DNA of 32,212 nt from Alphaproteobacteria bacterium RIFCSPHIGHO2_02_FULL_46_13. Lineage in GTDB: Bacteria; Pseudomonadota; Alphaproteobacteria; Micavibrionales; Micavibrionaceae. The translations under genes were made by a program, and so were the position numbers. Position 1 is the first letter of the stretch; every line of letters starts with the position of its first letter. Location: NCBI GenBank assembly GCA_001767915.1, contig MEMI01000013.1, forward strand, positions 1-32,212, written 5' to 3'. Of this stretch, positions 14,249 through 30,142 are shown in pieces. The notes beneath the pieces were generated by a model. That model searched no databases and was not told the origin of the DNA. It worked only from the letters and a program-made list of their open reading frames with translations.

Positions 14249-14986
14249 ATGTCCGACTTTAATCCTGCAACATCGCAGAATCAAAATCCTACAAGACCCG
14301 CCCGTCCTGCTGGCGCTCCGGTCAAAAAGCCTGTTGCCAAGCCCTCCGCTGATCAAAGCGAAGTCGAGATGCTGAAAACCGTTGGGTCGGTGATTGTGCG
14401 GAACGAATTTTACCGTGACGGATACCGTACTTTGCTGAGAATTGCCGTGATTGAGGCGATGATTATTCTGGCGCTTGTCGGGGCCATGTATTTCGTCATT
14501 CAGGTTCATCAACCTGAAAATCGTTATTTTGCAACGACTGAAGATGGTCGTCTGGTTCCGATGGTTGCGTTGAGCGAGCCAAACTTGAGTGTTCCGGCAC
14601 TGATGTCATGGAGTGCGCAGGCGGCAACCGAAGTGATGACCTTTGGTTTCAATGACTATAAACGCCGTTTGCAGCAAGCCTCTAGAAACTTTACACGTCT
14701 TGGGTGGGTCAGTTTTACGTCCGCTCTAGAAAAATCGCGTATTATCGAGATGGTGGAGGCCAATGGTCAGGTTGTCTCTGCAGCACCTGCCAGTGCGCCG
14801 ATCCTGATTTCCGAAGGGGTTGTGAATGGGCGTTACCAATGGCAGGTTCAGGTGCCGCTGGTTGTGACTTATCAGGCGGGTTCATCTGTTCGTGATGATA
14901 AAATGCTGGTTACTTTGTTGCTTGTTCGGGTGCCAAAACTCGAAAGTCCAAACGGCGTTGGGATTGAACAATGGATTGCCAGATAA
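14249..14986 (+). CDS. icmL: Type IVB secretion inner-membrane protein DotI/IcmL
   Basis: VRNEFYRDGYRTLLRIAVIEAMIILALVGAMY TM region and NRYFATTEDGRLVPMVAL typical of IcmL/TraM; synteny with icmK/E/G/C/D/J/B downstream. Confidence 0.85.
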   Translation: MSDFNPATSQNQNPTRPARPAGAPVKKPVAKPSADQSEVEMLKTVGSVIVRNEFYRDGYRTLLRIAVIEAMIILALVGAMYFVIQVHQPENRYFATTEDGRLVPMVALSEPNLSVPALMSWSAQAATEVMTFGFNDYKRRLQQASRNFTRLGWVSFTSALEKSRIIEMVEANGQVVSAAPASAPILISEGVVNGRYQWQVQVPLVVTYQAGSSVRDDKMLVTLLLVRVPKLESPNGVGIEQWIAR

Positions 14987-15111
14987 AAAAGCCTCTTAAA
15001 AACGACAAAATATTGTATAAGAACGATTTATTGTCACCATATTGATATTGCTCTTGTGGTTTTTCCAGTATATCCTTCACTTGATTTTTAAGTAAACCGC
15101 ACGGGGTGCGC

Positions 15112-16338
15112 ATGACGAAATTTTACCTTTTCCGCATTCAGATGGTCATGATGATGGCCATCCTTATCTGTGTGGGGTCTGTTTCACAGGCTCAGACACC
15201 ATCAACCGGGTCGCCGCCGAGCGATTCGGCGACGCAGACTTTAATGCAGGATACTGCGCCGGCAGATGCTCCTTCAAAGGTTGATGCTTCTGGTGCGACG
15301 CCAGCGGGATTTCCTGCCGCCTCTAATGAGGCTCCGCCAAATCTGTCGGATTATCTAAATAATGCAGGGGTGGTGCAAGATGCATCAAAGTCGGCTGCCA
15401 CAAATGCATCGACCTCCAAATCAGTTGATAATGGAACTGTCGCTATTCCGACGATGGAAATGAATGCTCTCTCGGGTGGAGCTACTGCGCCCGCCCCTGT
15501 AGAATTGTCTCCGGAAGCAACAAAAGCTGCGGCTTCTGCGTCCATCAGAAAAGATGCATTTGGCGCAACAACGGATCAATTAATGCCTCTGAAGCCTAGT
15601 GAAATCCGTCGGATGCTTGAGCTTTATGATGAAACAAAGCAGGCGTCTGAAACCCCTGTTTATCCCTCTCCCGAGCCAGAATCGGCTTTTGTGAGTGCGT
15701 CTCTGGATCCGGGTGCAAAGCCGTTGATTATCAAGACTGCTGTAGGAAATGTGACCACAGTCAGTATCGTTGATTTGACAGGTCAGCCATGGCCAATCCA
15801 AGATTTGACATGGGCTGGAGATTTCCAAGTCGAGCAGCCTGAAAGTGGCAGCCATATGTTGCGTATTACTCCGACCTCTGAATTTGCAAGCGGGAATGTC
15901 TCGATGAGATTATTGGGATTGAATCCGCCTGTTATTTTTAGCCTGAAGGCTGAACGCAAAACTGTTCATGTTCGTCTGGATGTCCAAATTCCTGAAGTCG
16001 GTCCAAACGGTGTTTTGCCGCCGATGGATGTTCCTGTGTCAACCAAGGCAGGTGATGATTTCATGACCTCGGTATTGGTTGGTGTGGTGAAGGGCAAAGA
16101 TACTGAACAGCTGAGAGTTGATGGTATTGACGGTCGAACCACGGCTTTTGGTAAGGGGGGCATGGTTTATGTGCGTACACCTTATACAATGTTGTCCCCG
16201 GCATGGAGCAGTTCTGTTCAGTCCGCCGATGGAACCAAAGTTTATGCATTGAATTTTAGCCCTGTTATCCTTTTGTCTGATAAAGGGAAAATGGTGAGAG
16301 CCTACCTCTCACACAAGGAGATGTCTGATGAGCAATAG
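15112..16338 (+). CDS. icmK: Type IVB secretion protein DotH/IcmK
   Basis: Signal peptide, low-complexity N-terminal half, conserved domain (AVGNVTTVSIVDLTGQPWPIQDLTWAGDFQVEQP...HMLRITPTSEFASGNVSMRLLGL..PVIFSL) of IcmK/TraN; gene order. Confidence 0.85.
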   Translation: MTKFYLFRIQMVMMMAILICVGSVSQAQTPSTGSPPSDSATQTLMQDTAPADAPSKVDASGATPAGFPAASNEAPPNLSDYLNNAGVVQDASKSAATNASTSKSVDNGTVAIPTMEMNALSGGATAPAPVELSPEATKAAASASIRKDAFGATTDQLMPLKPSEIRRMLELYDETKQASETPVYPSPEPESAFVSASLDPGAKPLIIKTAVGNVTTVSIVDLTGQPWPIQDLTWAGDFQVEQPESGSHMLRITPTSEFASGNVSMRLLGLNPPVIFSLKAERKTVHVRLDVQIPEVGPNGVLPPMDVPVSTKAGDDFMTSVLVGVVKGKDTEQLRVDGIDGRTTAFGKGGMVYVRTPYTMLSPAWSSSVQSADGTKVYALNFSPVILLSDKGKMVRAYLSHKEMSDEQ

Positions 16339-17836
16339 TAATAATTTTGACCCGCCCGAAGATGTTGATTTGGATCAAATTCCTGATAGGGACGTTGATT
16401 TCGATGATTTTGAAGATAACAAAGACAAGTCATTAGGCGCGTCATGGAAAAGCAGCCCTCTCTTTAAATTCGGGGTTGTTGCTCTTGTTATTATTATCGT
16501 TATCGCATTGGTTTCTATTCTCAGTGGCGATAAAATTAAGGCGCCGGTTTCTTCCGTTGGTAAGGGAACCAATATCAAGGAAGCTCCTGGTATTAAAGAA
16601 GTCTCTCCAGTTATGAAAGAAGCGATTGAAGAGAAAAACGACCAGCGTATTGATGAGGCTCAAAAACAAGGAATGAGTGCCATTCCAACGCCTATTGCGC
16701 CTCCGAAAACTCTTTTGGAAGTGCCAAAGGACGATGCTCAATCAGAAGACCCATTGCTTAGATGGCAGCAAATGCAAACTGAGCGCGCAAAAGCTCAGCG
16801 CGAGCAGCAAACAGCACAAGATCAGCAAACTCAAGTTGATCCACAGCGCGAGGCTAAAGTCACCGCCTTATCACAAGCCATGACCCAACAAATAAGTGGG
16901 ATTTGGGGCGCACAAAAAATGTCGGATATGAAGCATATGAATGTCTTCACTAAAGTTGAGGGTCTTGGCGCAACAGATGCAAATGGCAATCCTACGATGA
17001 CAAATGTGTCTACAAATGGCGTGCAGCAATTGATTGATCAAACGCCTGCCAAGGTTATTGTCCCTGCAGGTAAAATTGAATATGCCCAGATGATTTTGGA
17101 AGCAAACTCGGATATTCCGGGGCCTGTTGTGGCTTTGATCGCATCAGGACAATTTAGTGGTGGCAAATTGATTGGTAAATTCCAAGCGCAAGATGAATAT
17201 CTGGTGATTACCTTCTCAACTTTGGTTACTAAAAAGGGAACAAGCATTCCGATTAACGCATATGCTTTGGATCCTGGAACATCATTGACCGGTTTGGCGA
17301 CAGATGTTGATCACCGTTATTTTAAACGAATTATTCTTCCAGCGGCTGCAAAATTTGTTGAAGGCTTGGGGAGTGCTTATGGTGAAACTACAAGCGAAAC
17401 GACGCAGAACGCAACAACTACGACTACGGCCACTACCGACCTAAACCCAAAACAAGAGTTTGGTAAAGCGGTTAGCGAAGCGGCTAAAACCGTTGGCGAG
17501 GTCTTGAGTGAGGACGGAAAAGATACTAAGCCGTTGGTTATTGTTGCTGCGGGGACTCCGATGGGTATTCTGTTTATGGATGCGATCACGGATAAGGATG
17601 TTTTGAGGGCGCGATCCGGTGTTTCGGGTGGCTCTCAAGGTGCGGGCCAGCAAATGCCTGTTCAGCAAGGGTACCCTCAACAGCAGCCTGCTGGGTTTAT
17701 GAACCAAATGCAGCAGCTTCAATACGGTCTTCAGGGGCAGCAATATCTTCAACAGCAGAATGGGGCTTATAATACCAATGGAGTGCCGGGGGGCTATGGC
17801 ACAACGACCGGAACCACGACCTCTGGTATTCAGTAA
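16328..17836 (+). CDS. icmE: Type IVB secretion core protein DotG/IcmE with C-terminal TrbI/VirB10-like domain
   Basis: N-terminal TM; KVIVPAGKIEYAQMILEANSDIPGPVVALIASGQFSGGKLIGKFQ...; AAGTPMGILFMDAI; overlaps icmK stop; Gln-rich tail. Confidence 0.88.
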   Translation: MSNSNNFDPPEDVDLDQIPDRDVDFDDFEDNKDKSLGASWKSSPLFKFGVVALVIIIVIALVSILSGDKIKAPVSSVGKGTNIKEAPGIKEVSPVMKEAIEEKNDQRIDEAQKQGMSAIPTPIAPPKTLLEVPKDDAQSEDPLLRWQQMQTERAKAQREQQTAQDQQTQVDPQREAKVTALSQAMTQQISGIWGAQKMSDMKHMNVFTKVEGLGATDANGNPTMTNVSTNGVQQLIDQTPAKVIVPAGKIEYAQMILEANSDIPGPVVALIASGQFSGGKLIGKFQAQDEYLVITFSTLVTKKGTSIPINAYALDPGTSLTGLATDVDHRYFKRIILPAAAKFVEGLGSAYGETTSETTQNATTTTTATTDLNPKQEFGKAVSEAAKTVGEVLSEDGKDTKPLVIVAAGTPMGILFMDAITDKDVLRARSGVSGGSQGAGQQMPVQQGYPQQQPAGFMNQMQQLQYGLQGQQYLQQQNGAYNTNGVPGGYGTTTGTTTSGIQ

Positions 17837-17871
17837 CAATCATTTTAAGGTACACCATAAGAAGGTAAGCT

Positions 17872-19134
17872 ATGTCTGATAAGAAAATAGATGATCAAAA
17901 ATTTGAAAATCAATCATCTGATTATGATGAAACATATGAAGATGATGTGACTTATACAGAAGATGATTCTGACCAGTGGTCCGATGATGCTGATTTGGGA
18001 GATGATGAAGATTCCGCAAGTGAGCAGGCCCCACCAGCGAAAAAGAAAACATCAAACCTGACCATTGCAATTATTCTGGTTGTTGCAGTTGTTGGTGTTT
18101 TTGGCTTTATGGTTCTCAAAGGTAATAGTGGAGACGTGCCACAACCTAGTGCTGAAAATCAGGCCGCTGTTGCTATTGATGCGGATGCAGCGATGACACC
18201 GCCCGTTACACAAGCGGATCAGTCCAATATTACAGATCTTAAAAATCAAGCTGATCAAGACAACCAAGGTGACCAAACAGCTAATATTACGCCGCCGACC
18301 CCAGCGGCCGTTGCAGATGAACCACCACAAGGGTTGATGGATAACCCCAATTTGATGGATTCCAATGCCAAAGCTGATGTCAGCCCAGCTGACGCCAAGC
18401 CTATTGTTGGCTCTGTACCAGCCACTTCCGGTGCAGATCAGACTTCTGCTGTCCCATCTGAAGAAGTTGTTAATGCGATTTCTCCGACGGTGAAGCCAGT
18501 TTCTGATTTCCCAACTGTTGACTCTATTAAAAAGCCGGATTCGGCGCCTGTACCTGTTATGACGGGTGCAACAGGCTCTGTGGATGTTGATCCTTCAGTC
18601 GAGCAATCTAATAAAGCCGCTGAGCTGAAAGCCCAGATCGATGCCGCTCAGGCTGAAATTTCTAACTTAGAAAAGAAAATTTCTGATCAGGCTGCGGAGT
18701 TAGAGGCTCAAAAGCAAGCTGTTGCTAAAGCAACTGCTCAGGCTTCTGTTACTGCATCTGGTGTTTCTGAGGCAGAAGTTGCTGCCTTAAAAGAACAAAT
18801 CGCGGATCTGGAAGAAAAATTGGCTGCAAAAGCAGAAAAACCTTCAAAAGTTGTTGTTGCCGAGGCATCTTCTACAGACGAAAGTGAATATGTTGTAAGC
18901 AAGCCCGTTGTCAAAAACAAGCCTGTTGCGGCTAAGCCAAAACTTGCTTTAAAACAAACATGGTCTTTAAAAAGTGCCGGAACTGGCAAAGCGATTCTCT
19001 CTGATAAGGCAACTGGTGATTTGAAGACAGTCAGAGTAGGGGACGTGGTGTCAGGACTGGGGCGCATCGTTAGCATTTCCAATATCAATTCATCATGGGT
19101 TGTAAAGGGAACTTTGGGGTCTGTTTCTGAATAG
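17872..19134 (+). CDS. icmG: DotF/IcmG-like type IVB secretion protein
   Basis: Acidic cytoplasmic N-terminus, one TM (LTIAIILVVAVVGVFGFMVL), coiled coil, small C-terminal domain (KQTWSLKSAGTGKAILSDKATGDLKTVRVGDVVSGLGRIVSI); synteny. Confidence 0.7.
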   Translation: MSDKKIDDQKFENQSSDYDETYEDDVTYTEDDSDQWSDDADLGDDEDSASEQAPPAKKKTSNLTIAIILVVAVVGVFGFMVLKGNSGDVPQPSAENQAAVAIDADAAMTPPVTQADQSNITDLKNQADQDNQGDQTANITPPTPAAVADEPPQGLMDNPNLMDSNAKADVSPADAKPIVGSVPATSGADQTSAVPSEEVVNAISPTVKPVSDFPTVDSIKKPDSAPVPVMTGATGSVDVDPSVEQSNKAAELKAQIDAAQAEISNLEKKISDQAAELEAQKQAVAKATAQASVTASGVSEAEVAALKEQIADLEEKLAAKAEKPSKVVVAEASSTDESEYVVSKPVVKNKPVAAKPKLALKQTWSLKSAGTGKAILSDKATGDLKTVRVGDVVSGLGRIVSISNINSSWVVKGTLGSVSE

Positions 19135-19307
19135 ACGACAATAAGCACCACTCAATCCCCACAGACTTAAGGATTCTTTAAGAAACTGATGCTACCTTTA
19201 TATGGTTGGGTAATGGGTTTTAAGAAATTTAGGAAACTTGCTTTTTCCCTTAGAATCTGCTTTAATTGAGTTAAGGAATACCGTGATAAAACGGTCGGGT
19301 GTGCACT

Positions 19308-20348
19308 ATGAAAAAATTGAAAAATTCGCTCTATAAATTACCTTTTTTCTCATTTATGACAATTTCAATTCTTCTGTCGTCTGTGAAGCAATCTCACGCG
19401 GCGAGTGCCGTCGATGTTTTGGTTCAGATGGGGCTTGCTAAAGCGAATGCTCTTATTGTCAATACCATCAATGGCGCGGTAGGCTTAGGGTCTTGTCAGG
19501 GTAATGGGCAGATTAGCGATGTGATTTGTAATGTGATGGGGGCTTCATCGGGGCTTCCGGGGCTTGTTACCGCTCTTGCTTATCTTTTTGGCATTATCTT
19601 AGCTGTTGCGGCTCTGTTCAAATTAAAAGACCATGTTTTGAATCCATCACAGACGCCATTGTCAGATTCATTGAAGAGGTTTTTGGCGGGCGGTGCCCTT
19701 TTCACTCTGCCATTGATAACCGAGGCTGCACAAAATGCCCTGACCGGCGGAAATATGGATTCAAGTCAGGTGACCGTTTATAACGGTCAGGCCGCCAACG
19801 CGAGTGGCCTTGACGGGATGCTGGTCTCGCTCTTTGCTGATATTTATGAGCCTATGATCAATATCATATTTGCGTTTGGCTATCTGGCTGGGCTTATTTT
19901 GGTTGTTGCGGGTATTGGTCGCATTATTAAGACAGCTCAGGATGGACCCCGTGGCCCTGCTGGCATGGGCACGATTATGATGTTTGTTATTGCGGGCGTT
20001 TTGTTTTCTCTTAGTAGTATTATGGGGGCGTTCTCAAGCAGCATGTTCCAAAGTTCTACGGTTGCAACATTTGCAGTGTTGGAGACGTCAACAGGCGATA
20101 CAGTGATTGATCAACACGTTCTTGCGATGATTTCTACAGTTCTTGTTTTTATGACTATAATAGGGTATATTAGTTTCATGCGCGGATTTTTTATTATAAA
20201 AGACGTTGCAGAAGGTGGTGGACAAGCTTCGCTCATGGCTGGTGTGACACATATTTTTGGTGGTGCATTGGCTGTGAACTTGGGACCGTTATTAAACGCG
20301 GTACAAAGTACTTTAGGTTTGAGTGATATTGGTATAACATTCTATTAG
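19308..20348 (+). CDS. icmC: IcmC/DotE-like protein with N-terminal IcmD-like domain
   Basis: C-terminal GYISFMRGFFIIKDVAEGGGQASLMAGVTHIFGGALAVNLGPLLNAVQSTLGL fits IcmC/DotE; residues 82-148 match the IcmD product encoded next door; synteny. Confidence 0.75.
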   Translation: MKKLKNSLYKLPFFSFMTISILLSSVKQSHAASAVDVLVQMGLAKANALIVNTINGAVGLGSCQGNGQISDVICNVMGASSGLPGLVTALAYLFGIILAVAALFKLKDHVLNPSQTPLSDSLKRFLAGGALFTLPLITEAAQNALTGGNMDSSQVTVYNGQAANASGLDGMLVSLFADIYEPMINIIFAFGYLAGLILVVAGIGRIIKTAQDGPRGPAGMGTIMMFVIAGVLFSLSSIMGAFSSSMFQSSTVATFAVLETSTGDTVIDQHVLAMISTVLVFMTIIGYISFMRGFFIIKDVAEGGGQASLMAGVTHIFGGALAVNLGPLLNAVQSTLGLSDIGITFY

Positions 20349-20376
20349 ACTGAACATAGCATTGAGGAGGAAAATC

Positions 20377-20781
20377 ATGCTGAAATTGAACAAAAAAATG
20401 AATAAACTTGCTGCCTATACATCTGCTTCCCTTGTAACTGGGCTTATGTCCTCTACAAGTGCAAAAGCTGCTGATGCAAGTTTCACAACTATTTCCCAGA
20501 CTATTACCGGACAAATCGGTGGTCTTCCTGGGTTTATTACTGCGATTTCTTACATCATGGGGACATTGTTTGCTGTTCTCGGTATTCTTAAAATTAAAGA
20601 TCACGTTGAAAACCCAAGCAATACACCTTTAAAAGATGGCGCTATCCGTCTTGCTGTTGGTGGTGGACTGTTCGTGGTTCCATTGATTACAGAAGCAATG
20701 CAAAACTTGCTGGGTACTGGTACTGGTGTTGATGTTCAATCTATGAAAAACATCAATACTTATAACACTGTTACACCATAA
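20377..20781 (+). CDS. icmD: IcmD/DotP-like membrane protein
   Basis: Signal peptide, GLPGFITAISYIMGTLFAVLGILKIKDHVENPSNTPLKDGAIRLAVGGGLFVVPLI; SD GAGGAGG at 20364-20370; synteny. Confidence 0.75.
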   Translation: MLKLNKKMNKLAAYTSASLVTGLMSSTSAKAADASFTTISQTITGQIGGLPGFITAISYIMGTLFAVLGILKIKDHVENPSNTPLKDGAIRLAVGGGLFVVPLITEAMQNLLGTGTGVDVQSMKNINTYNTVTP

Positions 20782-20802
20782 TCGCGTTCTTATTCTAAGC
20801 GT

Positions 20803-21510
20803 ATGAAAAATATTAAAGTCAATTTGGGGATTGCCCGTTCATCGGGCAATCTTCGTCTATCAAAGGGGGCTAATGCTGTTAGTCCTACTGTCATGACGCC
20901 TGAGCTTAAAAAAATGATTTTTGAGCGAGATGAGCAGACATGCCAATGCTGTGGTTTTAAAGCCGACAAATATCAAGATATTCACTTTATCGACAATAAT
21001 CCCAAAAATCTGGATCCTGAGAATTTACTGACAACCTGTATTTTTTGTCATCAATGTTTTAATTTGGAACAAGCGACTGCCATGCGCTCTGGCGTTTTGA
21101 TCTGGTTGCCTGAGATTTCACAAATTGATCTTCATCATATTATGCGTGCAGTATATGTTGCACGGATTTCCCAAGGGCCAATGGCCGAGGCAGCGCGCGT
21201 GACGCTTGATTCGCTCATGGGGCGTCGTGAAGAAGCCCGCAGACGTATCCAAACCGATGATCCTTTCGTTCTATCCACGGTTCTGAAAGATTTCCTGACC
21301 GGAAAATATTATGCGGAAAGAAATGAAAAATTGCAGGGCGTCAGGTTGTTGCCGTTGGATCGCCGTTTGATCAAAGAGGCTGATTTGGAATTTAACCAAT
21401 TTCCCCAGATTTTGGCTTATTGGAGATCAAAAGATGGTCCGTTTGGTGGCCGTGCACCAACACTTTGGACAAATCTTTATAAAAGCGCTCTCAAAGAATT
21501 AAATTCATAA
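20803..21510 (+). CDS. icmJ: Type IVB secretion protein DotN/IcmJ (zinc-binding, HNH-like fold)
   Basis: RSSGNLRLSKGANAVSPTVMTPELKKMIFERDEQTCQCCGFKADKYQDIHFI...LLTTCIFCHQCFNLEQA; paired CxxC motifs; synteny. Confidence 0.88.
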   Translation: MKNIKVNLGIARSSGNLRLSKGANAVSPTVMTPELKKMIFERDEQTCQCCGFKADKYQDIHFIDNNPKNLDPENLLTTCIFCHQCFNLEQATAMRSGVLIWLPEISQIDLHHIMRAVYVARISQGPMAEAARVTLDSLMGRREEARRRIQTDDPFVLSTVLKDFLTGKYYAERNEKLQGVRLLPLDRRLIKEADLEFNQFPQILAYWRSKDGPFGGRAPTLWTNLYKSALKELNS

Positions 21511-21601
21511 TTTTTTTTAGTCAATTTCTGGTCATATGCAGTTTTCTATTTCTACAAATCCTGTATAGTATCAAGACATTAAATCCAACTGATTGATACA
21601 C

Positions 21602-24589
21602 ATGAATATTTTTCAAAAAATTCTTTATCCGTTCCAAGGAGCCTTGCGCCAATCTGTGGGCAGTTTTATCAGATTGGAGACAATGGACAGTGAATTCACA
21701 ATGGCGGCCAGTGACGGGTCGCTTGTGACTTATTTGAAAATTGACGGCAGCAGACAAATTATTGGTGAAGAAGAATATAATTTTCTGATTGAGGCCGCGA
21801 CCATTAAGCTGGGTGCAAAATTTGACCGCCCCGGTCATGCCATGCAAATTTATTTCTCAAGAGATCCTGCACGTATCCGTGCCCATCTTGATGTTTTGAA
21901 CAGGCCTGTTTTTGCAACTGCCGCCAATACGGGTCTGGAGATCAGCGACCTGATCGAAGAGAAAGTGAAAAACCTTTCAACCATTTTGAGTCATGAGGAA
22001 TGTTATTTCGTTTTGTGGACACGTCCGTCGTCCATGACAAAAAGTGAAATTCAACGCGTCCGTGAAGAGAAGCAAGTACAAAATAAAAAATGGGTCAATG
22101 CGCCGTATGGACAAAATCCTTTGGCAGGGGTCGAGAGCCTTCGTACCAGACATAAAAGTTATACAACTGCTATCCAGCAGGCGCTGGACGAGATGGGCAT
22201 CCGTGCTGAATTTTTAGAGGTTCATAAGGCTTTGCGTGCTGTCCGTAACAATATGTTCCCATCACGCGCCAATGAAGATTGGAGAGCCTGTCTCCCCGGC
22301 GACCCAATCCCTGCACGTTCCCCTCTCAATCAGTTTGATTTGTCTGATATTATATGGCCATCCATTGCCGACCAGATTTGTGTCGGTGATGCAAGGTTGA
22401 CAGGCGGCCCTGTTGTGCAAATTGATGACATGAATTGGGCTGGTGCGGACATGACGTTGGGACCGATGGAGGTTGCTCCGTTTCCGATGCTTCTGAACCG
22501 CCTTTATGATTCAAAAGTACCATTCCGTATTTCATTGCTGGTTGAAGGCGGTGGGGTTGAGGCAACGGCGTTTAAAACATTGGTCGCAACATTGATGAGT
22601 GTCACCAATGTCGTCAATAAACAGATTAAATATTCTCTGGAAGGGCTGCAAGCCCTTGCGCGGAGTGAGCCTGTCGTCAAGTTGCGCGTGTCATTTGCGA
22701 CATGGGCGCCGAAATCTGATCCTAATTTAATTCAAGACAGACTGTCGATTTTGATGCAGTCGGTTGAAAGCTGGGGCTATGCTCAGGTGAGTTCGGCCTC
22801 TGGTGATCCGTTGGATTGCGTCATGTCATCTGCGATGGGAATTCATTGTGCGGGTACTGCGCCACTTGCGATTGCTCCGATGCGTGAAGTGATGAAGCTG
22901 GTTCCATGGCAACGTCCGTCGAGCCCGTTCTCTCAAGGCGCGATTATGCTGCGGACACCGGACGGGAAAGTCTGGCCTTATCAAACCGGTACAAACCTGA
23001 CCACCACTTGGTTTGATTTGATTTTTGCGCAGCCGGGTGCTGGTAAATCTGTTCTGATGAATACGTTGAACCTTGGGACAATTTTGACCCCAGGTCTCAA
23101 TAAATTGCCGTTTATCGCTATCATTGATATTGGTCCGTCTTCATCGGGGCTTGTCTCGCTGATTAAAGAGGCGTTGCCGATTGAGCGACAGTTCGAGTCG
23201 AACTATTACCGTCTGCAAATGTCTAGATCTTACGCGATTAACCCGTTTGATACGCAGCTTGGATGTCGTTATCCATTGATTGACGAGCGCAGTTATTTAA
23301 CCGAGTTGATGACCTTGCTCTGTACCCCGCCTGGTAATGACAAGCCGTATGACGGTATTCCGCAGTTGGCGGGATTGGTTGTTGACGAGATGTATCGCTG
23401 GCGCGATGACAATATGGCGAATGCTGAGCCACGTCCGTATTTGCCGCGTTTGGATGGCGAGATTGATGATGCGATCCAGAAACATAATATTCATTTGCCA
23501 ACCGACCCTTATTGGTGGGACGTTGTTGAAAATCTGTTTGACCGCGGATTATATATGGATGCGATCCGTGCGCAACGTCATGCTATGCCAACATTGAATG
23601 ATGCGATTACGGCGGCACGTCGCCCGCAAATTCGCTCCCTTCTTGAGGAAACAGCGATTGGCGGAAGTAGTGAATCGGTGATTTCTGCGTTTGAGCGGAT
23701 GATTACGTCTGCCGTTCGTGACTTCCCGATTTTATCGTCAGTCACGCAGTTTGATATTGCGGGGGCGCGTATTTGCTCCCTCGACTTGATGGATATTTCT
23801 CCGCAAGGGGATGATACTGCGGATCGTCAGACAGCCGTCATGTATATGTTGGCACGTCAGGCATTGGTCAGAGCATGGTGGGTGGGCAAAGAATCCCTTC
23901 CGTTTATGCCTGAAAAATTCCGAGATTATCATGAATTGAATTTGCAGGATTTGGCAGAGTCACCGAAAAGACTTTGTTATGACGAGTTCCATCGAACCAG
24001 TTCTTCTGGCTCTGTCCGTGCACAGGTTGTGCGTGACGTTCGTGAGGGGCGGAAACGCGGTGTGCAGATCGTTCTGGCGTCTCAATTATTGGGCGACTTT
24101 GATGATGATATGGTTGATTTGGCAACGGGGGTTTGGGTTCTAGGGACTGCCGTGTCCGACAAGGCAGTTGATGATATTCGTGATCGTTTCGGTTTGTCAT
24201 CCACCGCCAGAAATATCATTCGTTATCGTTTGACGGGGCCACGTGCGGGTGGTGCGCCTGCCCTTCTGATCCTTGGTACCAACGAAGGACGGTATGAGCA
24301 GCATTTGATCAATACGCTGGGGCCGATTGAATTATGGGCGTTTGCGACATCGGTTGAAGATGTGATTATTCGTAACCGCCTTTATGCCAAGTTTGGTGCA
24401 GGGCGCGCGCGGCAAATTCTGGCCGTATCTTTCCCAGGCGGAAGTGCGCGGAATGAACTCAAGCGTCGGATTCTTTTGAAATCTGATTCAGCCGATTCAA
24501 AGGCCGCTGCACAAAGCGCTATTATTGACGAGTTGGTTGAAGAATTGATTGATACTTATAATAAACAAGCTTTAGCAGGAAAAACTTAA
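21602..24589 (+). CDS. icmB: Type IVB secretion ATPase DotO/IcmB (VirB4-like)
   Basis: Walker A FAQPGAGKSVLMNTLNLG, Walker B-like KRLCYDEFHRTSSSG, ~1000 aa; ATG at 21602 chosen over TTG at 21593. Confidence 0.92.
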   Translation: MNIFQKILYPFQGALRQSVGSFIRLETMDSEFTMAASDGSLVTYLKIDGSRQIIGEEEYNFLIEAATIKLGAKFDRPGHAMQIYFSRDPARIRAHLDVLNRPVFATAANTGLEISDLIEEKVKNLSTILSHEECYFVLWTRPSSMTKSEIQRVREEKQVQNKKWVNAPYGQNPLAGVESLRTRHKSYTTAIQQALDEMGIRAEFLEVHKALRAVRNNMFPSRANEDWRACLPGDPIPARSPLNQFDLSDIIWPSIADQICVGDARLTGGPVVQIDDMNWAGADMTLGPMEVAPFPMLLNRLYDSKVPFRISLLVEGGGVEATAFKTLVATLMSVTNVVNKQIKYSLEGLQALARSEPVVKLRVSFATWAPKSDPNLIQDRLSILMQSVESWGYAQVSSASGDPLDCVMSSAMGIHCAGTAPLAIAPMREVMKLVPWQRPSSPFSQGAIMLRTPDGKVWPYQTGTNLTTTWFDLIFAQPGAGKSVLMNTLNLGTILTPGLNKLPFIAIIDIGPSSSGLVSLIKEALPIERQFESNYYRLQMSRSYAINPFDTQLGCRYPLIDERSYLTELMTLLCTPPGNDKPYDGIPQLAGLVVDEMYRWRDDNMANAEPRPYLPRLDGEIDDAIQKHNIHLPTDPYWWDVVENLFDRGLYMDAIRAQRHAMPTLNDAITAARRPQIRSLLEETAIGGSSESVISAFERMITSAVRDFPILSSVTQFDIAGARICSLDLMDISPQGDDTADRQTAVMYMLARQALVRAWWVGKESLPFMPEKFRDYHELNLQDLAESPKRLCYDEFHRTSSSGSVRAQVVRDVREGRKRGVQIVLASQLLGDFDDDMVDLATGVWVLGTAVSDKAVDDIRDRFGLSSTARNIIRYRLTGPRAGGAPALLILGTNEGRYEQHLINTLGPIELWAFATSVEDVIIRNRLYAKFGAGRARQILAVSFPGGSARNELKRRILLKSDSADSKAAAQSAIIDELVEELIDTYNKQALAGKT

Positions 24590-24594
24590 AACGC

Positions 24595-25098
24595 ATGGCT
24601 AAGCCTAAGGTTTCAAAACCGCCTAAACCACCCAAAGAACCTATGTCTCCCGGCACAAAGAAAAAATTGTACTGGGGCGGTGGTTTGGCTTTTTTTGGTC
24701 TTATTGTCATGATGGCGATGACTCCTCAGCAGGGAAGCATGCGCTATGGCATTTGCCGAGTATTTATTGAGTTGAATGATCTTTATCCCAAAGAAATCAC
24801 TTATTTGAGTGTTGAAGATGGTGACCCCGTTAAAATATATTACAAGAAGGTCGATCCGTTTGGTGTCGACTCTGTGAATCTGGCCGAGTGTTATTTCAAG
24901 AGAAATAGCAGAGGGGAATTTCTAGACGAGCTGTCAAAGGTTGATATTAACGGGAAGTTCAGGGCGTATGAGGCTGAAAAACCGGAAAATATAAAGCGGT
25001 TTAACACTGGTATTCCAGCCATTCTTGCCAATCCACCCAATCTGGATTTACCCAATTTCTCGCAGGATAACATCGCTGCTTATAAAGATACCGATTAG
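24595..25098 (+). CDS. Unrecognised single-TM protein, last gene of the icm block
   Basis: Lys/Pro-rich N-terminus (MAKPKVSKPPKPPKEPMSPGTKKK), TM (LYWGGGLAFFGLIVMMAM), ~120 aa predicted periplasmic domain; 5 bp after icmB stop. Confidence 0.75.
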   Translation: MAKPKVSKPPKPPKEPMSPGTKKKLYWGGGLAFFGLIVMMAMTPQQGSMRYGICRVFIELNDLYPKEITYLSVEDGDPVKIYYKKVDPFGVDSVNLAECYFKRNSRGEFLDELSKVDINGKFRAYEAEKPENIKRFNTGIPAILANPPNLDLPNFSQDNIAAYKDTD

Positions 25099-25109
25099 AG
25101 TCTGATTAC

Positions 25110-25850
25110 CTAATTTGAGTCGGGGACAGGGTTTTTGAGCTCTTCGGGGACATCGTCTGATGTTTCATAGAGATACCATGTCGGGTCTTTTGATTTCATA
25201 TCCCGTCCGAACGTCCAGACATCATTCATCGCGATCAATTTATCAGGATTGCCGTGCGTGATATTCCCTTCACGGTCACGGATGACGATTGTTTCTTCGG
25301 CCAAAAATCTCAACTTGATATAGGCCATGCGATCAATGCGCTTGATCCCCATAATTTTGCAATCTTTCACCACATGGACATCGGTTGCGAGTGTTTCGCC
25401 TTTGTTTTTCCGGTCTTCAATGGCTTGCTCAAAGGTTGTATAAACCCCATCAGAGAGCAGCATTTTCAGTGTTTTCAGATCGCCTCTGGAAAAGGCTTCA
25501 ACGATCATCGGGAAAGCTTCTTTTGCACCATTTATAAAATCTTTCGGATTAAAAGACGGGTCGATATGCATATAATCGATCATTTCCTTGGCAGTATCTT
25601 CACCCCCTTCAATCGGGATGCTGTCCATAGCTGCTTTCGGAGGAATCACGGCTGTGTCGTTTTGCGGAACGCTGAGGTCGATAATACGCCCCGAATCGGC
25701 AGGTTTCTGATTCTGTTGCTGGCGTTCCTTAATACGTTCGATAATATCTGAACGATCCATTTCTGAGCCATGTTTTGACCCAATGGTGTTGCGTAGCCAA
25801 ACAACAAGAACAACGGCAATAACAATATAGATAAGGAGATCAATCGGCAC
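25110..25850 (-). CDS. Tim44/TimA family protein
   Basis: N-terminal TM then GAKEAFPMIVEAFSRGDLKTLKMLLSDGVYTTFEQAIEDRKNKGE...DVWTFGRDMKSKDPTWYLYET. Confidence 0.92.
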   Translation of the reverse strand: MPIDLLIYIVIAVVLVVWLRNTIGSKHGSEMDRSDIIERIKERQQQNQKPADSGRIIDLSVPQNDTAVIPPKAAMDSIPIEGGEDTAKEMIDYMHIDPSFNPKDFINGAKEAFPMIVEAFSRGDLKTLKMLLSDGVYTTFEQAIEDRKNKGETLATDVHVVKDCKIMGIKRIDRMAYIKLRFLAEETIVIRDREGNITHGNPDKLIAMNDVWTFGRDMKSKDPTWYLYETSDDVPEELKNPVPDSN

Positions 25851-29467: not shown

Positions 29468-30142
29468 CTATTCGGCTTCCAGAAGGCTGTAAAAGGCATA
29501 TTTGCCTGATCCATCGGTCACGCAGAGAGCAGGAATTTCTTTACAGGTTGCGCAATTTGTCTCTGTGAAGTCGTCGTTTGTGCCTGTATGCAGGTCATCA
29601 GACACAAACAAATTCTGGAGAGATTCCCCCGTAACGGTTGGAATGGTTGACGCGCCTGTGATTTTCTTATTGATCTCGGCGCAGACGGTTTGTTTGATTT
29701 CATAGGCTGTAAAGACAACATCTTGGGCGGTTGTCGGAGTCCATTCAATATTGTTGAAACGCCCGATATAGTAACCTGCGGCCAGACCCGTTTTGTCATC
29801 GGCTGAGGCTTTTAAAGGAATGGGTTTGTAATTGAAACCACCGCCATCAGGATGAAAGAGTTTATGGATCGTTGGGGCGTCATTAAAGTTTGTATCCGAG
29901 GGAACGATAAAATCAATCATACCGACAGTTGCGCCCGTTTGCTGCATCTGGGCGATTGCGCTAGAGGCTGCGGCTGCATAGGCGATTATTTCGCCGGCAA
30001 CGATTTTGCTCTCGCCCTCTGATAATTCGCTCGGGGCATCATTTTGGCTTGCTGATTTGCTGATTAAAAACATTAACGACCCCAAAAGCCCTACGGCAAT
30101 CAGGATATAGACAAATACATTTCCTTTTTGATTTTTAATCAT
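29468..30142 (-). CDS. Secreted/pilin-like hypothetical protein
   Basis: MIKNQKGNVFVYILIAVGLLGSLMFLIS N-terminus resembles a (pseudo)pilin signal; Cys-containing C-terminus (NCATCKEIPALC). Confidence 0.6.
   Translation of the reverse strand: MIKNQKGNVFVYILIAVGLLGSLMFLISKSASQNDAPSELSEGESKIVAGEIIAYAAAASSAIAQMQQTGATVGMIDFIVPSDTNFNDAPTIHKLFHPDGGGFNYKPIPLKASADDKTGLAAGYYIGRFNNIEWTPTTAQDVVFTAYEIKQTVCAEINKKITGASTIPTVTGESLQNLFVSDDLHTGTNDDFTETNCATCKEIPALCVTDGSGKYAFYSLLEAE

Follow-up and report, generated by a model that had tools for sequence, protein, structure and literature searches.

Background

The closest described relatives of the system reported here are the Dot/Icm type IVB secretion system (T4BSS) of Legionella, the conjugation apparatus of IncI1/R64 plasmids (MPF_I) and the kib T4BSS of Pseudomonas putida IsoF, which kills bacteria by contact using an effector-immunity pair (PMC9519443). 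We analysed a Dot/Icm-like gene block in a 32,212-nucleotide stretch (the window) of Alphaproteobacteria bacterium RIFCSPHIGHO2_02_FULL_46_13, order Micavibrionales (MEMI01000013.1, positions 1 to 32,212), which is contig C13 of a 2.13 Mb genome that is 97% complete. The nine consecutive plus-strand open reading frames (ORFs) across 14249-25098 were borne out as real. Those at 14249-24589 encode DotI-H-G-F-E-P-N-O (IcmL-K-E-G-C-D-J-B), confirming the presence of a Dot/Icm secretion core, and an unnamed ORF (ORF9) comes next. The original prediction, made from the letters of the window, had spread these eight names over all nine genes; family, PDB or TraU matches, and for DotP its position and homology to DotE, upheld eight of them while the ninth is left without a Dot/Icm name. 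We propose that the block belongs to a resident chromosomal type IVB machine that probably delivers protein by contact, most likely into prey bacteria.

Results and discussion

Comparison with described systems

The system shares with Legionella Dot/Icm the core, the ATPases, the coupling proteins, the icmL-K-E-G-C-D-J-B order, DotN, a DotL that is 41% identical over 680 amino acids and, probably, the DotA-IcmX gate class. It differs in having a half-length DotG (502 amino acids against a 1008-position model), a double-length DotE, a tripled DotA, multiplied IcmX-class proteins, scattered loci and a DotL tail that is not conserved, and three proteins found here, ORF9, F21 and a 183-amino-acid protein encoded between dotM and dotL, are additional to the known Legionella set. 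With IncI1/R64 it shares the traM-N-O-P-Q-R-T-U order, homologues of the whole core and a short DotG like TraO. Here, however, the genes are chromosomal and order-wide, the genome has no PF03432 relaxase, DotL is 29% identical to IncI1 TrbC over the shared domain only (527 amino acids), and the gate is multiplied, whereas IncI1/R64 has one TraY and one TraW. The agreement with Legionella in gene order, which the original prediction had pointed out, is real but not distinctive, since IncI plasmids have the same dotI-H-G-F-E-P-N-O order and gene order alone therefore cannot separate Dot/Icm from conjugation. The kib T4BSS of P. putida IsoF is a horizontally acquired island of a few strains, in contrast to the vertical distribution across an order and the multiplied gate seen here.

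Alphaproteobacterial plasmids and genomes of other orders (Acetobacter, a Methylorubrum megaplasmid and the genomes G256, G447 and G522) encode DotO proteins 39-57% identical to that of the window and share the dotD-C-B-icmT order, with dotM, the 183-amino-acid gene and dotL following dotO in some. The chromosomal loci of the G256/G447/G522 group are single clusters with a duplicated dotI, unlike those described here, and the T4BSS-like genes of Acetobacter have a relaxase nearby. The megaplasmid of Methylorubrum extorquens AM1 (locus L222, 297-1484 and 11203-15021) encodes a weakly matching IcmX-class homologue and a DotO with 44% identity to that of the window; it is typed MPF_I and non-mobilizable, and its DotN lies more than 200 kb away, so that the T4BSS there, too, is scattered and perhaps resident.

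A type IVB parts list in one genome

The machine genes of the window genome are spread over at least five chromosomal loci, with gmk, rplJ/rplL, polA and mltA as housekeeping neighbours. Contig C44 carries dotD-dotC-dotB-icmT, part of dotB reading N in the genome sequence, followed by a TcpQ/STN-domain gene, one outer-membrane gene and ORFs reading as rplJ and rplL; C50 carries dotM, the 183-amino-acid gene, dotL and a pilin-like gene; C36 has three tandem dotA genes adjoining mltA, and on C33 a gene for an exported helical protein stands four times in tandem. The outer-membrane core is represented by DotC, DotD, DotH, DotG and DotF (the last a weak match), the inner-membrane part by DotA, DotE, DotI, DotP and IcmT, the ATPases by DotB and DotO, and the coupling complex by DotL, DotM and DotN. 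The type IVB parts list, comprising core, inner-membrane proteins, ATPases and coupling complex, is thus encoded in one genome. Parts not seen in the block had been expected to lie elsewhere or to be absent; three dotA genes, dotB, dotC, dotD, icmT, dotL and dotM are indeed on other contigs, while a separate icmM/dotJ was not placed, the only match to the IcmM/DotJ model being a 27.7-bit cross-match of DotI itself. Nor were icmQ/R/S/W, icmF/H and icmV placed, no adequate search having been made for them.

The block lies between gmk and a Tim44/secB pair, its scanned flanking genes are housekeeping genes, and its GC content (46.0%) is like that of its flanks (46.2 and 47.0%). The genome yielded no PF03432 relaxase, this being the only relaxase family searched and oriT not having been sought, and such relaxases are distributed patchily across the order (55 of 142 genomes). 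On account of these two relaxase results we take the machine to be resident rather than a conjugative element. Carriage on a plasmid or integrative element likewise does not fit the housekeeping neighbours, the flank-like GC content and the order-wide single copy. The original description of a resident chromosomal block in these surroundings therefore stands, on GC content, on the position of dotD-C-B-icmT beside rplJ/rplL and on the relaxase search, as does its alphaproteobacterial host, the related contigs being alphaproteobacterial or Micavibrio.

Conservation and descent in Micavibrionales

We sampled 142 Micavibrionales genomes from 54 genera, a majority of them metagenome-assembled genomes (MAGs). 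DotH was present in single copy in 132 genomes and 50 genera, DotL in 132 genomes and all 54 genera, and DotA in 135 genomes and 53 genera. No genome lacked all three, and as at least one is found in every genome the single absences look like assembly gaps. All proteins tested order-wide (DotH, DotL, DotA and DotO) are kept, DotO with 59-71% identity to its counterparts in other Micavibrionales genera and families. Micavibrio aeruginosavorus ARL-13, an obligate epibiotic predator whose genome paper states that evidence of type III and type IV systems is lacking (PMC3189940), encodes dotI-H-G-F-E-P-N-O-ORF9, two IcmX-class genes, icmT, dotD-C-B, dotM-dotL and three dotA genes. Genes of this set lie at 0.201-0.210, 0.408-0.413 and 2.422-2.444 Mb of its genome.

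A scan of named genomes with a DotO alignment returned 80 loci, all in MAGs labelled alphaproteobacterial, Proteobacteria/Pseudomonadota or Micavibrio. Elsewhere in the class, 12 of the roughly 381 genomes sampled have DotH; ten of these 12 have a DotL relative (42-60% identity), and in several the machine is in one cluster. As the phylum sample contained no closely matching Legionella DotO, DotL was used for the tree instead. Families f1, f2, f5 and f6 form clades, a single Micavibrionales clade was not rejected (p-AU 0.32), and the IncI1-type TrbC proteins stand apart from the group holding Legionella DotL. Judged from the DotL tree, the machine is vertically inherited in Micavibrionales; a recent horizontal island was rejected on GC content equal to the flanks, synteny and the same tree. 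Within the genus dN/dS, taken where dS is not saturated, is about 0.02-0.1 for DotO, DotI, DotH, DotN and DotP, with dS near saturation, which indicates strong purifying selection on the window genes except dotF, a fast-evolving gene whose 46% identity compares with 95% for dotO.

Multiplied DotA and probable IcmX-class genes

In family f1 each sampled genome has dotA in three or four tandem copies, except that G072, whose stretch began inside the cluster, has two in view. In the other families most sampled genomes have one dotA; G113 (f4) has two, and G126 (f6) has three that form a branch of their own. In the family of M. aeruginosavorus, alongside its three or four tandem DotA paralogues, IcmX-class paralogues number two to five and have variable N-termini. 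The exported-protein copies on C33 are 32-40% identical to one another, and one of them has about 300 extra N-terminal residues.

This exported protein (F8), often tandem, is encoded divergently before dotI in 33 of the 80 named loci and had no sequence match in NCBIfam, Pfam, PHROGs or PDB. In genome G427 an F8 homologue lies directly before dotA and matches the TraW model at 3e-5, below the cut-off. IcmX and TraW are VirB5-class partners of DotA and TraY (PMC12624023), and this position beside dotA led us to suspect the VirB5/TraW/IcmX class for F8. A Foldseek search of an AF2 model of F8 against 350,542 PDB chains gave one significant match, chain AP1 of 9ngy (probability 1.00, E 7e-4), the Legionella DotA-IcmX protochannel; we take this 417-residue chain as IcmX because the DotA chains of the entry are 1048 amino acids long and labelled from FP1. 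Position, the bridging TraW match and the structural match together make F8 a likely member of the IcmX/TraW class. A plasmid search for the IcmX-class protein returned none.

In the M. aeruginosavorus family the multiplied gate suggests that gate and stalk are probably exchanged or combined according to prey or stage of attack. More tentatively, and with considerable doubt, DotA and the IcmX-class paralogues, having arisen more than once, may act as interchangeable gate and tip modules that fit an inherited predation machine to its prey or to the stages of attack.

Proposed delivery into prey and its alternatives

Among the possible functions we rank delivery into prey first, given that the order's cultured member lives as an obligate predator of bacteria and that the P. 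putida T4BSS kills bacteria by contact; that prey is the target is our inference, which we hold to be somewhat better than an even case. In such a machine the DotL-DotM-DotN complex would pick protein substrates, DotO and DotB would power their transport, and the substrates would cross a DotA-IcmX-class gate and pass through DotC-D-F-G-H into the touching cell, most likely prey. We regard the machine as a strong candidate for the device with which these predators kill or feed. Several points weigh against this reading. We found neither a substrate, effector or immunity protein nor any data on expression (eukaryotic-like effectors were not sought), predation is documented for only a few Micavibrio strains, and most genomes examined here are MAGs whose lifestyle is unknown. 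In Legionella the C-terminal tail of DotL docks IcmSW; here that tail is not conserved. The relaxase search was limited to PF03432. As to the gate, the F8 model is of moderate quality (pLDDT 68.5, TM-score 0.3), its bridge to TraW is below the cut-off, and comparing profiles directly with a single TraW sequence gave a negative result.

The same machine might instead inject effectors into eukaryotic cells (protists, algae or sponges), Micavibrionales then being associates of eukaryotes more often than assumed. The effector-secreting relatives Legionella and Coxiella act on eukaryotes, the DotL found here is close to that of Legionella, and Needham et al. 2022 (PMC9418006), who mention a pT4SSi in seven marine Micavibrionales, take it as a sign of host association. 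We nevertheless consider this unlikely, since bacteria are the obligate prey of the cultured member and the machine occurs throughout the order, not only in host-associated members. DNA export is less probable still, whether by a resident apparatus that mobilises integrative elements in trans or by a former conjugative element that has become fixed. It would agree with the gene order of IncI plasmids, with the DotO relatives (39-44%) and DotN relatives on alphaproteobacterial plasmids, and with the relaxases of the 55 genomes mentioned above; yet the window genome is without a relaxase of the family searched, the T4BSS is universal where relaxases are patchy, its genes are split over chromosomal loci beside housekeeping genes, and DotL does not group with IncI1-type coupling proteins. 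An IncI-like conjugative element was accordingly rejected as the principal interpretation, given the missing PF03432 relaxase, the universal machine and the separation of DotL from TrbC. That the apparatus serves mainly as a surface stalk or adhesin for attachment to prey or surfaces, and not as a translocator, appears very improbable: the IcmX/VirB5-class tip proteins and pilin-like F21 proteins are expanded and surface-lectin-like tandem genes lie beside dotA, but a pure adhesin would not need DotL-M-N, DotB and DotO, all of which are kept in the order or in the genome.

Genes of the window block

All genes of the block are on the plus strand. dotI/icmL (14249-14986) encodes the VirB8-class protein of the inner-membrane complex (PF11393, 1e-62; NF038072, 201 bits, over cut-off), and dotH/icmK (15106-16338) the VirB9-class protein of the outer-membrane core (PF12293, 2e-69; Legionella DotH in PDB 6x62, 9e-37). 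The VirB10-class protein encoded by dotG/icmE (16328-17836) is the short form of 502 amino acids and matches TrbI (7e-13), TraO (1e-31) and, over its C-terminal part, NF033900 (4e-45). dotF/icmG (17872-19134) has a weak match to NF038218 (8e-6), with its position as support. dotE/icmC (19299-20348) is of double length, as across the order, and is made of two TraQ/TraR-like units, matching the TraQ model NF033883 in two stretches (3e-13); its N- and C-terminal halves align in hhalign at 95%. dotP/icmD (20377-20781) had no significant family match of its own in Pfam and NCBIfam scans, the best being a weak TrbC/VirB2 pilin hit (E 0.03); we identify it by its place at the DotP (TraR) position and its homology to the N-terminal half of DotE (48% identity over 88 amino acids). 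TraR is listed in the VirB2/pilin class (PMC12624023).

The coupling-complex subunit encoded by dotN/icmJ (20803-21510) scores 90.6 bits (9e-26) against NF038221, just below the cut-off of 100 bits, and matches DotN in PDB 5x1h (2e-19). The VirB4 ATPase encoded by dotO/icmB (21602-24589), which has the Walker A motif GAGKS, gave no match at threshold in the family scans; it is a homologue of TraU of conjugative plasmids (27% identity over 96% of its length, E ~1e-89), with TraU homologues in 3767 plasmid records. A scan for promoters and terminators gave results near chance or uninformative.

Accessory genes of the machine

ORF9 (24595-25098, plus strand) is the gene after dotO in 69 of 80 related loci and encodes a new T4BSS-linked inner-membrane protein with one transmembrane helix and a small alpha/beta domain, the latter confidently modelled by AF2 (pLDDT 89). 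It had no match in the family libraries and no significant fold match in Foldseek; an assignment as TraV was rejected on a negative hhalign comparison, and one as a VirB8-like fold because the Foldseek match was not significant. F21 (29468-30142, minus strand), beside rmuC, encodes a pilin-like exported protein with a single transmembrane helix that matches the ORF neighbouring dotL on C50 (E 2e-13). Members of its family lie beside dotL in 20 of the 30 DotL loci, and we infer from the paralogue next to dotL that F21 is tied to the machine.

The 183-amino-acid protein encoded between dotM and dotL (L059, 10744-11295) recurs in ARL-13, in G121 and G140 and in one genome of another order; belonging to no known family, it is a candidate new subunit of the coupling complex. 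The TcpQ and secretin-N (STN) protein encoded after icmT (L002, 7821-8906), a relative of which adjoins icmT in ARL-13, is possibly a second DotD-like outer-membrane part. Beside dotA on C36 (L007, 16654-20000, and L008) a group of at least four genes, alike and arranged in tandem or close together, encodes exported surface proteins of about 430-550 amino acids that share one repeated N-terminal domain and are possible adhesins. In ARL-13 (L040, 14478-17833) flgK- and flgL/flagellin-like genes lie directly between the IcmX-class genes and the TcpQ-like and icmT genes.

A small gene for a GcrA-like regulator lies directly before dotI at three loci of other alphaproteobacterial orders (L238, L240 and L242; weak matches, 6e-3 to 1e-6), hinting at cell-cycle control of the machine. 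The genes Tim44, mltA and smr are frequent neighbours in Alphaproteobacteria. Here Tim44 (window, 25110-25850), mltA (L007, 6120-7304) and smr (L002, 15017-15604) are separated, each on a contig with a T4BSS fragment, and this split may mark an old rearrangement.

Conclusions

Beyond the original prediction, the system proves to be order-wide, with the named predator M. aeruginosavorus among its carriers, and to have a multiplied DotA/IcmX-like gate. We found no report in the open-access literature of a T4BSS in M. aeruginosavorus, of its order-wide conservation or of the multiplied gate, and the latter two appear to be new. No other system compared here has several different gates, which makes the multiplied DotA and IcmX-class genes relevant to the DotA-IcmX gate that was recently solved. 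The complete T4BSS of ARL-13, kept across the order, offers a directly testable candidate for a role in predation, and the picture of Dot/Icm shifts from one centred on intracellular Gammaproteobacteria to one in which an order of Alphaproteobacteria inherits an ancient machine.
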